DNA from: an uncultured Caulobacter sp.
GTDB lineage: Bacteria > Pseudomonadota > Alphaproteobacteria > Caulobacterales > Caulobacteraceae
Direction of reading: 5' to 3'
NCBI GenBank assembly: GCA_913776195.1
Contig: CAJYMH010000021.1
Span: 224,458-288,457, forward strand
DNA: 64,000 nucleotides
Below are positions 37,984 through 42,114 of the stretch, in pieces. Under the pieces are notes generated by a model. The model was not told the origin of the DNA. It was given only the letters and a program-made list of their open reading frames with translations, and made no database searches. Each line of letters starts with the position of its first letter. Position 1 is the stretch's first letter. Made by a program: the position numbers and the translations under genes.

Positions 37984-38622
37984 TCACCAGCGGAGGATGC
38001 GCGGTCCAAGAATGGCGCCGGCCATGGTCGCGAGCGCGACGCCCGAGGTGTACCGCGTAAAGATGTAGAGGGGCGACACCGCCTCGCAATAGAGGCAGTA
38101 GAGGGTGGCGGCGACTGCTCCGGAGACGAGGCCGAGCGCTGCTCCGGCCAGCGGAAGATTGGTGGGCGCCAACCTGCGGAAGGCCAAAGCGAGCGCCGCG
38201 AAAACGGGCGCGGAGAGCATCAGTACGATCAGCGGGCAGGACCAGGGCGGATACATGATGCGCGCGGCCCATTTCCAGGACGGAGTACTCGCCAGTTCCA
38301 GAGCGCACATCGCCCCCATCACCGCCAGGGGCGCGGCCCAGAGCCATGCCCAGCGCAGGCGGGTGGTGTCAGGCCGCGCGACCTGAAGCGTCAGGATCAA
38401 CCCGCAGGCGGCAAGCGAGGCGGTGTAGGCAGCCTTGTACCAGAACGGCGCGGTGAAAGCGGCTGCCCCGATATCGGCACGGACACCCAGGCCGAACAGA
38501 ACCAACACCAGAGTGATCGCGCCGCCCCCAAGAAGCGCCAGGACAATACGGCGCCGGGCGGTGTTCCGCGGAACAGGGGGGACTTGTTTCACGAGACTGC
38601 GGATGAGGGCTTCGTGGCTCAT
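37984..38622 (-). CDS. nrsF: NrsF family (DUF1109) anti-sigma factor
   Basis: About 212 aa with six predicted membrane helices after a short cytoplasmic N-terminus (MSHEALIRSLVKQVPPVPR). DUF1109/NrsF proteins hold SigF at the membrane. In Caulobacter, cysteines of NrsF are implicated in release of SigF under chromate, cadmium or copper stress. Candidate cysteines here are in PPWSCPL and YCLYCEAV. The start overlaps the sigF stop by four bases, so sigma and anti-sigma are co-translated. Confidence 0.88.
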   Translation of the reverse strand: MSHEALIRSLVKQVPPVPRNTARRRIVLALLGGGAITLVLVLFGLGVRADIGAAAFTAPFWYKAAYTASLAACGLILTLQVARPDTTRLRWAWLWAAPLAVMGAMCALELASTPSWKWAARIMYPPWSCPLIVLMLSAPVFAALALAFRRLAPTNLPLAGAALGLVSGAVAATLYCLYCEAVSPLYIFTRYTSGVALATMAGAILGPRILRW

Positions 38623-39158
38623 CGCGCGCTCCCGGTCAGGCGGGCCGCCAGCAACTTGAGCCCCCTATGTACGGAGATCTTCACGTCGGACTCGCTTATT
38701 CCGCCGTGGGAGGCGGCTTCAGCTGAACTCAAACCATCAATACGTGTGCGCCTGATCGCGAGCGACTGCTTCGATGACAGGCCGCCCAGGAGTTGGTCTA
38801 CGTCCATGCGCGCATTGGCCGCCGCCTCGAATCCTTCAGTCACGAGAATTTCCTCAAGACCTTCGAGGGGGACGTGGCGGCGCATGCGGCGGAAATAATC
38901 CACCAGCTTGTAACGGGCGATCGAGAAGATCCAGGCGGACAGAACCCGATCGCGGTCGTAGCTCGCGCGACGATTGTGAACTGCTATCAGTGTTTCCTGC
39001 ACGAGATCCTCAACTTCGGCATGACCGTCGCCCAGGCGTCTGCGGAAGAAGGCCTGCAGCAACGGAACCAGCGCAGCCAAAAGCTCAGCATGAGCCCCGG
39101 CGTCGCCCTCCAGCCCGCCGATCATCAGTGCTTTGAGCTGGCTTTCAGTCGCCGCCAT
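38619..39158 (-). CDS. sigF: ECF sigma factor SigF
   Basis: 179 aa. Region 2 has DLVQETLIAVHNRRASYDRDRVLSAWIFSIARYKLVDYFRR, and region 4 has LSSAEAASHGGISESDVKISVHRGLKLL. The neighbouring NrsF identifies it as the SigF (ECF16-like) type. A GAGGAG ribosome-binding site precedes ATG 39158. Its own promoter at 39177-39205 has the same -35/-10 pattern as the two bufferin promoters, indicating autoregulation. It directs the divergent metal-peptide operon. Confidence 0.88.
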   Translation of the reverse strand: MAATESQLKALMIGGLEGDAGAHAELLAALVPLLQAFFRRRLGDGHAEVEDLVQETLIAVHNRRASYDRDRVLSAWIFSIARYKLVDYFRRMRRHVPLEGLEEILVTEGFEAAANARMDVDQLLGGLSSKQSLAIRRTRIDGLSSAEAASHGGISESDVKISVHRGLKLLAARLTGSAR

Positions 39159-39176
39159 CCATGCTCCTCATCCAGC

Positions 39177-39205
39177 TCTTCGCCAGATGTGTTCCGCCGG
39201 TTACC
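39177..39205 (-). promoter_or_regulatory. SigF-type promoter of sigF-nrsF
   Basis: On the minus strand: GGTAAC, 17 bp, CGAAGA. The -10 end is 19 bases from the sigF start, giving a short leader. It is back-to-back with the bufA1 promoter, with the -35 elements 39 bp apart. Confidence 0.7.
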
Positions 39206-39244
39206 GCCATCGAAGATTTATTTTCCGGCGTGCGCTTCGCGCTT

Positions 39245-39274
39245 TGTAACGGACTGGCGCAGCGCCGCGAAGAA
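39245..39274 (+). promoter_or_regulatory. SigF-type promoter of bufA1-doxX
   Basis: TGTAAC (39245-39250), 17 bp, CGAAGAA (39268-39274). Sequence and spacing are the same as the site before bufA2. It gives an untranslated leader of about 80 nt before ATG 39363. Confidence 0.72.
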
Positions 39275-40078: not shown

Positions 40079-40108
40079 TGTAACCGCGATCGCAAAGCTC
40101 GCGAAGAA
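40079..40108 (+). promoter_or_regulatory. SigF-type promoter of bufA2-bufB-bufC
   Basis: TGTAAC (40079-40084), 17 bp, CGAAGAA (40102-40108). It is identical in both boxes and spacing to the bufA1 promoter. A small hairpin AGGTCC/GGACCT (40112-40128) lies in the leader before ATG 40147. Confidence 0.72.
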
Positions 40109-40146
40109 GGAAGGTCCCGTAAGGACCTAATCACTGGAGACAAACA

Positions 40147-40416
40147 ATGATCCAAACGAAATCCACCGCCGGCCTGGCGGCGGCCGCCGCCCTCCTGGCC
40201 CTCGCATCCGCCTCGCCTACCTCGGCCCAGGCTCCGGCCCAAGGCGCGGCCAAGCTCGAGCACTGCTATGGCGTCAACAGCTGCAAGGGGACCAGCGACT
40301 GCAAGACCGCCAAGAACGAATGCCGCGGTCAAAACAGCTGCAAGGGCGAAGGCTTCAAAGCCATGACCAAGGACGCCTGCATCGCGGCGGGCGGCAGCCT
40401 GACCTCGCCTAAGTAG
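40147..40416 (+). CDS. bufA2: Cysteine-rich bufferin precursor BufA2-like
   Basis: 89 aa. A signal peptide (cleavage near SAQA) is followed by a mature peptide with six cysteines in a repeating pattern: HCYGVNSCKGTSDCKT, NECRGQNSCKGEGF and DACIAAGG. The CKGxxxCK/GQNSCKG repeats mark the second bufferin precursor type. This is distinct from the DUF2282 peptide upstream but shares the CYGV start. GGAG precedes ATG 40147. It is followed two bases after the stop by an upstream in-frame ATG of bufB, so it is in the same operon. Confidence 0.83.
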   Translation: MIQTKSTAGLAAAAALLALASASPTSAQAPAQGAAKLEHCYGVNSCKGTSDCKTAKNECRGQNSCKGEGFKAMTKDACIAAGGSLTSPK

Positions 40417-40474
40417 AATGGACGCCGCGCCGGGCCGTCCAGGCCGGGTGCGGCTCCTGTCGCACGGAGCTCCC

Positions 40475-41326
40475 ATGCCGCCCGCCAATCCAGCCTTTCA
40501 CGGCTACGGCCTCGGCCTGCGCCGGGAACACTATCGCCAGGTTCTCGAAAACGATGCTGAGCTCGACTTCGTGGAGGTGATTTCGGAGAACTTCATGGTC
40601 GATGGCGGTCAGCCGCGGAGCATTCTGCGGCAGGTGCGGGAACAACGGCCGGTGGCGCTCCACGGCGTGTCCATGTCCATCGGCTCAGCCGACGGACTTG
40701 ATCGGGACTATCTCGTCAGGCTGAAGGCTCTTGTCGATGAAATCGACCCGCTCTTCGTCTCAGACCATCTTAGCTGGTCGCGGTTCGCGAGCTTCAACGC
40801 GCATGATCTTCTTCCTCTGCCCTACACTGAAGAGGCGCTTGAGATCGTCTGCGCCAATATCGATCAGGCGCAAGATGTCCTTGGCAGGCGGATTCTTGTG
40901 GAAAATCCTTCGAGTTACGTCGCCTTCGCCGACGGCGCGATGAGCGAGTGGCGCTTCCTCGAGGTCATGTGCGCCCGCACGGGGTGCGACCTGCTTCTCG
41001 ACGTCAACAACATCTATGTCAGCGCGAGGAACCACCGCTTCGATCCGGCTGCATATCTGGAGGGTCTGCCCTTCGACCGGGTGCGTCAGATACATCTGGC
41101 GGGCCATAGCCAGGGCTTGGAGCTGTTGATCGACACGCACGATGCGGCCGTCTGCGATGCGGTTTGGCGACTCTATGAGGAGGTCGTCGCCCGCGTCGGC
41201 TCCGTGGCGACCATGATCGAGCGAGATGACGCCATCCCGCCGCTGAAGGATCTGCTCGAAGAATTGGCCGTGGCCCGCGCGATCGGTGAACGGAGCGCGG
41301 CTGTGCGCTTGCGGGCGGCGCAATGA
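40475..41326 (+). CDS. bufB: MNIO (DUF692) peptide-modifying enzyme BufB
   Basis: About 283 aa, the normal DUF692 length. It is a TIM-barrel with multinuclear iron ligands spread over VEVISENFM, ALHGVSMSIGS, VSDHLSWS, VENPSSYV, LLLDVNNIYVSA, HLAGHSQ, DTHDAAV and MIERDD. MNIO enzymes oxidise peptide cysteines; BufB converts core cysteines to thiooxazole-type groups in bufferins. ATG 40475 has GGAG six bases upstream; ATG 40418, just after bufA2, lacks one but would add 19 residues. It overlaps bufC by four bases. Confidence 0.9.
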   Translation: MPPANPAFHGYGLGLRREHYRQVLENDAELDFVEVISENFMVDGGQPRSILRQVREQRPVALHGVSMSIGSADGLDRDYLVRLKALVDEIDPLFVSDHLSWSRFASFNAHDLLPLPYTEEALEIVCANIDQAQDVLGRRILVENPSSYVAFADGAMSEWRFLEVMCARTGCDLLLDVNNIYVSARNHRFDPAAYLEGLPFDRVRQIHLAGHSQGLELLIDTHDAAVCDAVWRLYEEVVARVGSVATMIERDDAIPPLKDLLEELAVARAIGERSAAVRLRAAQ

Positions 41327-42114
41327 AACTGGCGGCATTGCAGTCTGATTTTCATGCCTGGCTGACGCGTGGCTCAGCATCCGCAGCCGACCGGCTTGGG
41401 GCGGGCCCGGGCCTTGTCGTCTATCAGAACAACTACCGGTCCCAACTGGTCAGCGCCTTGCGCGAAGCCTTGCCGCTCACTCTGACTTGGATCGGCGAGG
41501 AGGCCTTCGTTGGCGCGGCGGCCGGCTATATTGATCGTTCGCCGCCAAGCGCATGGACTTTGGACGCCTATGCGCCGGGCTTCGCACAAGCCCTTGCGGA
41601 ACATTTTCCCGGTGACCCGGAGGTGGCCGAACTGGCCTGGATCGAGACGGCTCTGGCTGAAGCCTTCGTGGCGGCGGACGCCGAACCCCTGACCCCAGAG
41701 AACCTTGCCCGCGTGGATTGGGAGCAAGCCCAGTTGCAGCTTCCTCCGTCTTTCCGGATGCGAACCGTGAGGACCAACGCCGAAGCAATTTGGACTGCTC
41801 TGTCGAGCGGCGCGTCGGCGCCTCAAGCGAGGATGCTGGACGCCCTTACAGGGCTGATCGTCTGGCGAAGAGGGTTCACCTGCTTCTTGAAGGCGATCGA
41901 CGACATCGAGGCTGCGGCCTTCGATCAAATCCACGCCAATCCCTCCTTTTCAGCGCTGTGCGAAAATCTTGTCGGAACGCTGGGCGAAGGCCGCGGACTT
42001 CAAGCGTCCTCGGCGTTCCTAGCGACCCTTCTGCAATTTGGGCTCCTAACGAGCATAGAGGCGCCTCGGGCCGACGCTTCCCCGGAAGGCGGCTCGCCGA
42101 CGCCTCAGCGGTGA
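41323..42114 (+). CDS. bufC: DUF2063 partner protein BufC
   Basis: About 263 aa. The N-terminal DUF2063 helical domain has LQSDFHAWLTRG, LVVYQNNYRSQLVSALREALP and the following region up to AWIETALAEAF. The C-terminal half is a winged-helix-like domain (SFSALCENLVGTLGEGRGLQ). DUF2063 proteins bind the leader or core of MNIO substrates and deliver them to the enzyme; despite a common DNA-binding label, that role is unlikely here. It is the last gene of the operon and is convergent with a LysR gene. Confidence 0.86.
   Translation: MKLAALQSDFHAWLTRGSASAADRLGAGPGLVVYQNNYRSQLVSALREALPLTLTWIGEEAFVGAAAGYIDRSPPSAWTLDAYAPGFAQALAEHFPGDPEVAELAWIETALAEAFVAADAEPLTPENLARVDWEQAQLQLPPSFRMRTVRTNAEAIWTALSSGASAPQARMLDALTGLIVWRRGFTCFLKAIDDIEAAAFDQIHANPSFSALCENLVGTLGEGRGLQASSAFLATLLQFGLLTSIEAPRADASPEGGSPTPQR

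Follow-up and report, generated by a model that had tools for sequence, protein, structure and literature searches.

A composite SigF-type bufferin cassette with two precursor classes and a single predicted maturase in a Caulobacter genome

The 64,000-nucleotide stretch of DNA analysed here (the window), from an uncultured Caulobacter sp., contains a seven-gene cluster (37984-42114) in which nrsF-sigF on the minus strand lies back to back with bufA1-doxX-bufA2-bufB-bufC on the plus strand. As two classes of bufferin precursor are encoded beside one maturase gene, the question arises of which enzyme modifies which peptide. We consider it likely, with a probability of about 0.6, that the single Buf2-type BufB-BufC pair modifies both BufA1 and BufA2 into predicted periplasmic copper traps, encoded next to a back-to-back SigF-NrsF-family pair. 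The basis of this reading is the gene content, the Cys patterns, the motif placement, the grouping of BufB, the recurrence across species, and the single MNIO gene detected in many genomes.

The divergent arrangement claimed in an earlier note on this DNA was recovered with all seven genes in place, and the gene identities claimed there (two Cys-rich precursors, an MNIO enzyme, a DUF2063 partner, and a DoxX protein) were confirmed by Pfam and NCBIfam matches. The sigF product (38619..39158, minus strand; 179 aa) is an ECF sigma factor with Sigma70_r2 and Sigma70_r4_2 domains (PRK12539, 181 bits against a cut-off of 171), and its reading frame overlaps by 4 bases that of nrsF (37984..38622, minus strand), which encodes a 212-aa anti-sigma factor (PF06532, 185 bits). 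As the latter scored 97.1 bits against the cut-off of 300 for the NCBIfam equivalog AntiSigF_NrsF, it was regarded as an NrsF-family protein, putative at the equivalog level; SigF/NrsF systems belong to the ECF16 group, with DUF1109 anti-sigma factors. On the plus strand, bufA1 (39363..39629) encodes an 88-aa Buf1 (DUF2282) precursor with four Cys spaced C-x10-C-x7-C-x20-C (PF10048, 89.6 bits), and its stop is overlapped by the start of doxX (39626..40075; PF07681, 64.1 bits), whose product fell below the cut-off of NCBIfam NF050144 for HvfX-type DoxX (55.6 bits vs 80). The bufA2 product (40147..40416, plus strand) is an 89-aa Buf2 (Cys-Lys type) precursor with six Cys spaced C-x5-C-x5-C-x6-C-x5-C-x12-C (NF050166, 103.6 bits, cut-off 60). 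The signal peptides of both precursors were judged by eye; in BufA2, a basic/hydrophobic N-terminal segment is a candidate Sec signal peptide. The MNIO maturase gene bufB (40418..41326, plus strand) generated hits on NF050167 (382.1 bits, cut-off 310), PF05114 (367.3 bits), and 3bww (E 2.4e-45); because the family match starts at residue 30-31, an alternative start at 40475 is possible. The product of bufC (41323..42114, plus strand), the DUF2063 partner of PME type 1, matched PF09836 (54.1 bits, cut-off 27.2) and generated no sequence match to solved chains at E 0.001.

A sigF-nrsF pair adjoining a bufferin operon is not new, as it is already the C. crescentus arrangement and is common in the window's genus. 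SigF of C. crescentus controls two bufferin operons, CC3252-CC3257 (nrsF, sigF, bufA1-bufB-bufC-doxX) and CC2907-CC2905 (PMC3511200), and the SigF regulon is induced by copper, a sigF::Tn5 mutant being copper-sensitive (PMC8224329); the SigF-copper link claimed for Caulobacter is thus supported for C. crescentus (PMC8224329, PMC3511200). Among the other loci fetched from the window's genus, 33 of 60 had bufA1 and sigF without bufA2 (65 MNIO rows were listed; two come from the genome of the window itself, and three that were broken or partial, two from G053 and one from G021:C72, were left out). The cassette shares SigF/NrsF, the promoter motif, the Buf1 precursor, MNIO, DUF2063, and DoxX with the C. 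crescentus/vibrioides SigF regulon; however, the two precursors there lie in two operons, each with its own MNIO, whereas the cassette holds both precursors and one MNIO, and only in the cassette is doxX placed between the precursors and a SigF-type motif located internally. It also departs from the resident Caulobacter type, which is defined by the order bufA1-bufB-bufC-doxX, a Buf1-type BufB, and the resident SigF clade.

By its gene content, the cassette is a composite in which a Buf1 precursor and DoxX are joined to a complete Buf2 cluster, rather than the usual Caulobacter bufferin operon. The earlier note had listed the two precursor classes and the one maturase, now assigned to the Buf2 type, but had not recognised this combination as the odd point. 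With Buf2 (Cys-Lys captophorin) bufA2-bufB-bufC clusters the cassette shares a 6-Cys precursor with Cys-Lys motifs, BufB, and BufC, but it differs from them in the attached sigF-nrsF pair and Buf1-DoxX module. In a 2025 survey, Buf1 clusters contained genes for sigma factors and NrsF, but Buf2 clusters did not (PMC12452194), and composite loci with SigF are counter-examples to that absence. SigF-less composites (Cupriavidus, Dyella, Pseudomonas, and others) share the collinear bufA1-doxX-bufA2-bufB-bufC order with one BufB, but lack sigF-nrsF, and in all eight loci inspected carry a gene judged by eye to be alpha/beta hydrolase-like between doxX and bufA2. On pASTEX01 of Asticcacaulis excentricus, Buf1 and Buf2 genes likewise adjoin, with sigma factor and NrsF genes, but as two complete clusters with an MNIO each.

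The three matching promoters claimed for the locus were found as motifs of the form GTAAC-N17-CGAA, agreeing with the published SigF target consensus (T/C)GTAAC-N17-CGAA (PMC8315932); a SigF promoter motif of C. crescentus is also given in PMC3511200. One lies upstream of sigF (39179-39204, minus strand; GTAACC-N16-CGAA), one upstream of bufA1 (39246-39271, plus strand), and the third is internal, between doxX and bufA2 (40080-40105, plus strand). The strict motif occurs at 11 sites in the 3.27-Mb genome (83.75% complete) and the reversed control pattern at 7; from the other eight sites of the strict motif, 0.002 would be expected in the 927-bp stretch that holds the three. A single inspection of those eight established no further regulon member; one of them precedes a 271-aa ORF in locus L086. 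Among 43 composites with SigF, the strict motif preceded bufA1 in 35 and bufA2 in 33, and a relaxed motif (CG[AT]A, picked after the CGTA variant had been seen) preceded both genes in 43/43, at 0.0009 expected per searched upstream window. Neither bufA1 nor bufA2 was preceded by it in SigF-less composites (0/30 and 0/30). Upstream of sigF itself, the relaxed motif was present in only 12 of 44 composites.

The composite recurs widely. When the 80 named loci closest in BufB were examined, 70 contained bufA1 and bufA2 with one bufB, all 70 with doxX within 6 kb, and sigF and nrsF were also present in 40 of these. The collinear bufA1-doxX-bufA2-bufB-bufC order with one BufB was found in 22 of the 80 loci, and in 37 of the 80 doxX-bufA1, in that exact order, lay on a separate strand as a separable module. 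A genome search with PF05114, which detects both BufB types, generated exactly one match for 26 of the 40 named SigF composites and for 30 of 69 countable composites (the genome of L075 was left out of this count); all 26 records are titled whole genome shotgun and eight are MAGs, so a second MNIO gene could be missing there. Hosts of single-MNIO composites include Sphingobium abikonense and Sphingomonas sp. UV9. In single-MNIO genomes, both peptides depend on the one BufB-BufC pair, unless Buf1 remains unmodified. NF050166 (BufA2) had no match in 14 control genomes, C. vibrioides among them, in contrast to papers that assign C. vibrioides a Buf2.

In a BufB tree built by a quick method from 73 of 142 rows, some with long branches, all composite rows fell on one side of a branch with SH-aLRT 100 and 17 of 18 bufA1+sigF rows on the other; three loci in which only bufA1 was found (L081, L077, L008) were exceptions on the composite side. 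The cassette BufB grouped with the Buf2-type/composite enzymes. In the commonest strings, GLGL is followed by R in composites but by K in all but one bufA1+sigF row, which separates the groups. An Asp after the catalytic Asp, reported as the signature of Buf2-type (Cys-Lys) MNIOs (PMC13097082), was also tried as a marker, but is not diagnostic, since IERDD was present in 43/43 SigF composites and was shared by at least 27 of 35 bufA1+sigF loci. In a SigF tree of 55 of 81 rows, composite SigF proteins, that of the cassette included, formed their own clade (SH-aLRT 97), with a sigma factor of another clade in two composite loci (L071, L074). Residues C129 and C179 of NrsF lie in two conserved columns (Cys in 96/97 and 95/97), and an additional C176, giving C-x2-C with C179, was shared by 40 of 44 SigF composites vs 1 of 50 bufA1-only loci. 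DoxX and BufA1 trees (subsets of 72 and 70 rows, few columns) gave a firm result only for the pairing of the cassette with L137, and only for DoxX.

Could the composite BufA1 instead be exported unmodified, as a plain thiol/disulfide peptide perhaps acting with DoxX, while BufB-BufC matures only BufA2? The Buf2-side position of the cassette BufB in the tree and the separable doxX-bufA1 module would fit this, and PMC12452194 (Discussion) allows that some precursors may escape modification. Leader sequences also agree with it: BufA1 leaders scored better than their shuffled versions against a position-specific block built from BufA2 leaders, yet composite and Buf1-only loci did equally well (mean z 1.80 each; 1.05 in SigF-less composites), so that shared leader recognition is not supported by this comparison. 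Residues flanking the BufA1 Cys showed no clear difference between composite and Buf1-only loci. We nevertheless regard this explanation as rather unlikely, as the BufA1 Cys are equally well conserved in composite and Buf1-only loci (spacing conserved in 112/113 matches; the 6-Cys spacing of BufA2 in 85/85), and BufA1 had dN < dS in all seven composite pairs run, including cassette/L137 (dN 0.057, dS 0.75) and L052/L065, both from single-MNIO genomes (dN 0.029, dS 1.52, near saturation).

The same genome contains a second locus, L094 (sigF-nrsF-bufA1-bufB-bufC, without doxX), with a Buf1-type BufB, so that cross-talk is possible and the cassette BufA1 could be matured in trans, the two loci forming one network in this organism. 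The earlier description of a self-contained metal-defence island thus holds for the discrete cassette but overstates its independence. Two MNIO genes in this genome, and an equivalent pair of loci (L137, L184) in genome G071, favour maturation in trans; however, the genomes of 26 of the 40 named SigF composites had no second MNIO match, and separate control is hinted at by the L094 motif, whose spacer is one base shorter (GTAAC-N16-CGAA, at 2 of the 4 sites in the genome; reversed control, 11), and by its SigF of a different clade, making this explanation improbable. That the cassette is just the usual sigF-bufferin operon of C. crescentus plus a duplicated precursor, with nothing distinct, is very improbable: the regulator pair does adjoin the operon as in CC3252-CC3257, but the gene order differs, BufB falls on the opposite side of the tree, the SigF clade is not that of L094, and L094 already supplies the genome with a resident-type bufA1-bufB-bufC locus.

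If a single maturase does serve both peptides, copper or other thiol-reactive metals would act on the NrsF Cys, by analogy with C. crescentus, and free SigF, which is predicted to fire the three near-identical promoters and so express sigF-nrsF and the whole bufA1-to-bufC unit, the internal promoter adding an extra dose of bufA2-bufB-bufC. BufB and BufC would then convert the central Cys of BufA1 and the Cys of BufA2 into thiooxazoles before Sec export, the exported peptides would buffer copper, and DoxX may have an accessory membrane role. BufB would thus be a promiscuous enzyme acting on precursor families that were each presumed to have a separate MNIO subgroup, and two bufferin classes placed as a unit under one predicted switch suggest complementary metal-binding roles. 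Composites whose genome has a single detected MNIO gene offer a natural experiment on whether Buf1, too, is accepted by a Buf2-type BufB, and such cassettes supply many named species for study. Whether a SigF-driven, mobile-like cassette with one promiscuous Buf2-type BufB-BufC pair makes both Buf1 and Buf2 in Sphingomonadales and in certain members of the window's genus, with the NrsF C-x2-C as a possible distinct metal-sensing subtype, appears evenly balanced.

The cassette lies in a variable region (20970..45404) of approximately 24.4 kb, corresponding to approximately 6.3 kb in G013 and 1.0 kb in G009, whose left edge is a tRNA-Arg (cct) gene (20893..20969, plus strand; ARAGORN). Synteny with both genomes ends at 20970 and resumes at 46442 in the G009 comparison. 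No integrase was present among the ORFs scanned, and no repeat of the tRNA 3' end was found at the right edge of the variable region. In the stretch compared, similarity between L137 and the cassette was limited to nrsF-to-bufC, with none in the flanks. Among four plasmid loci inspected (from 30 of 360 BufB-matching records), three carry the composite gene set with a 6-Cys bufA2; PLSDB types these three plasmids as non-mobilizable, which gives no backing to the idea of a mobile cassette. The three loci, which were outside the training set, carry the relaxed motif before bufA1, sigF, and bufA2.

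The earlier note had assigned seven genes to the cassette, and all seven were found at window 37984-42114 and matched the expected families, with nrsF and sigF on the reverse strand and bufA1, doxX, bufA2, bufB and bufC on the forward strand. The gene pairs bufA1/doxX, bufB/bufC and sigF/nrsF overlap. The Buf1 precursor BufA1 contains a DUF2282 domain and four Cys residues; the Buf2 (Cys-Lys) precursor BufA2 contains six. Against the BufA2 model, whose cut-off is 60 bits, BufA2 reached 103.6 bits and BufA1 only 23.4 bits. Judged from their sequences, the two precursors clearly belong to separate classes. 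The Cys-Lys class and its MNIO are described in the available part of PMC13097082. BufB showed a sequence match to the solved MNIO 3bww.

The layout with bufA1, bufA2 and a single bufB within 6 kb (composite) was present at 70 of the best 80 of 382 named BufB relatives, a sample that leans to the BufB type of the window, and 40 of these 70 composites from the best 80 also carried sigF and nrsF (SigF composites). In the commonest order in the best 80 of 382 (37/80), found in Sphingomonadales by record title, doxX-bufA1 and sigF-nrsF-bufA2-bufB-bufC occupy opposite strands. The order bufA1-doxX-bufA2-bufB-bufC without sigF was found at 22 of the best 80 loci, and all eight SigF-less loci inspected had an alpha/beta hydrolase-like gene (by eye) between doxX and bufA2. 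Sphingomonas sp. R1, S. paeninsulae, and Novosphingobium sp. EMRT-2 also have plasmids with the SigF-type gene set, their bufA2 being labelled 'hypothetical protein'. In contrast to the one-maturase layout of composites, the back-to-back Buf1 and Buf2 clusters on plasmid pASTEX01 of Asticcacaulis excentricus (L196) have separate MNIO genes; one sigma factor gene and two genes for NrsF are also present there. Among the papers listed by literature searches, none described composite Buf1-Buf2 cassettes in its title or abstract opening; composite loci may have been counted under Buf1 in the survey PMC12452194.

The three matching promoters proposed from the sequence were borne out as motifs: GTAAC-N17-CGAA occurs before sigF, bufA1, and bufA2, the last copy being internal to the bufA1-to-bufC unit. 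The same motif is reported for SigF in C. crescentus (PMC3511200) and quoted as the ECF16 consensus (PMC8315932); copper induces the SigF regulon, and a sigF mutant is copper-sensitive (PMC8224329). The whole window genome has 11 such strict sites versus seven for a reversed control pattern, and three of the 11 lie within 927 bp at the cassette. The 350 bases upstream were scanned in 43 SigF composites (the 40 named loci, the window, and the genus loci L134 and L137). The strict motif preceded bufA1 in 35/43 and bufA2 in 33/43, and the relaxed form ending in CG[AT]A, set post hoc by admitting CGTA once that variant had been seen, preceded both genes in 43/43, against an expectation of 0.0009 per 350-base window (from 1.9 Mb of flanking DNA). 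Neither form was found before bufA1 (0/30) or bufA2 (0/30) in SigF-less composites. At Buf2-only loci, bufA2 was preceded by the relaxed motif in 11/12 and the strict motif in 10/12; at bufA1-only loci with sigF, the respective values for bufA1 were 32/35 and 9/35. The relaxed motif preceded sigF itself in only 12/44 composites. All three plasmids had relaxed sites before bufA1, sigF, and bufA2, with a fourth elsewhere on the S. paeninsulae plasmid.

NrsF has two near-invariant Cys columns (96/97 and 95/97), both known from C. crescentus. An additional Cys, located three positions ahead of the second column, was present in 40/44 NrsFs of SigF composites versus 1/50 from bufA1-only loci. The window genome contains a third NrsF-family match (G000:C14:128383-128565, L192; 50.8 bits), which is partial, covering the C-terminal part only.

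The second bufferin locus of the window genome, L094, consists of nrsF and sigF on the reverse strand followed by an HTH-like gene, bufA1, bufB, and bufC on the forward strand; doxX was not found there. The HTH gene (L094:9658-10065; XRE-like by eye) separates sigF2 from bufA1; one short-spacer SigF-like motif is located near its start (L094:9703-9727) and another before bufA1. The spacer is one base shorter than at the cassette; two of the four genome sites of that form are at L094 (reversed control, 11). The sister locus L184, from the genome of L137, has the same spacer; the difference, observed in a single lineage, could insulate the two sigma factors. L094 SigF and BufB cluster with the usual genus loci (SH-aLRT 99 and 98, respectively). 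The window SigF clusters with composite loci of other taxa (SH-aLRT 97), and the window BufB falls on the composite side of a branch with SH-aLRT 100, where the exceptions are L081, L077, and L008, in which only bufA1 was detected. By these sequence relationships, the window cassette is distinct from the resident bufferin locus of the genus. An MNIO match was present in 43 of 75 genomes of the genus set; among 60 further genus loci, the exact order of the window occurred once (L137, genome G071), as did the sphingomonad order (L134, genome G045). The genus also has a third MNIO type (L140-L153) with the motif LEWD instead of IERDD. At L147, a 694-aa open frame (5849-7933) with a Cys-rich last third is followed by the third-type MNIO (7947-8834), and most of L140-L153 likewise have a Cys-rich frame ahead of the enzyme; such a frame is a possible candidate for a large-protein MNIO substrate.

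PF05114 matches were counted in 77 distinct source genomes, the genome of L075 being left out. Exactly one match was found in the genomes of 26/40 SigF composites and 30/69 countable composites; by record title, all 26 single-MNIO SigF composites are from shotgun assemblies, eight of them MAGs. With a single MNIO gene, and barring a missed one, BufA1 would either be a substrate of the Buf2-type BufB or stay unmodified. BufA1 Cys spacing was kept in 112/113 matches and dN was lower than dS in all seven composite pairs run, which together favour, without proving, modification by the Buf2-type BufB. A test for leader motifs common to the precursors was negative. The parts of the cassette are ordinary and their combination is unusual and recurrent; the cassette offers a clean test of maturase breadth.

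Similarity between the window and L137 spans nrsF to bufC and then ends. Cassette GC is 0.641, within the lowest 1% of 4131-base windows, which average 0.674. Synteny with two relatives' genomes, G013 and G009, breaks off on the left where a tRNA-Arg gene ends (window 20970) and resumes on the right at 45404 or 46442; these flanks are 6.3 kb apart in G013 and 1.0 kb in G009. The window block at 26.9-37.75 kb is placed elsewhere in both relatives, at a distance of ~370 kb in G013 and on a separate contig in G009. The cassette is therefore part of a variable region bordered by a tRNA gene (window 20970-45404, ~24.4 kb), in which neither an integrase nor an attachment repeat was found. The plasmids of R1, S. 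paeninsulae, and EMRT-2 were typed as non-mobilizable. The variable region includes a P450/GMC oxidoreductase block that is located elsewhere in G013 and G009. Window 45404-46422, where the variable region ends, encodes a sigma-70 region 2 protein, a separate sigma factor, adjoining a glyoxalase-family gene, and an nhaA-II RNA (RF03038; 83.6 bits) is located at window 63039-63114.
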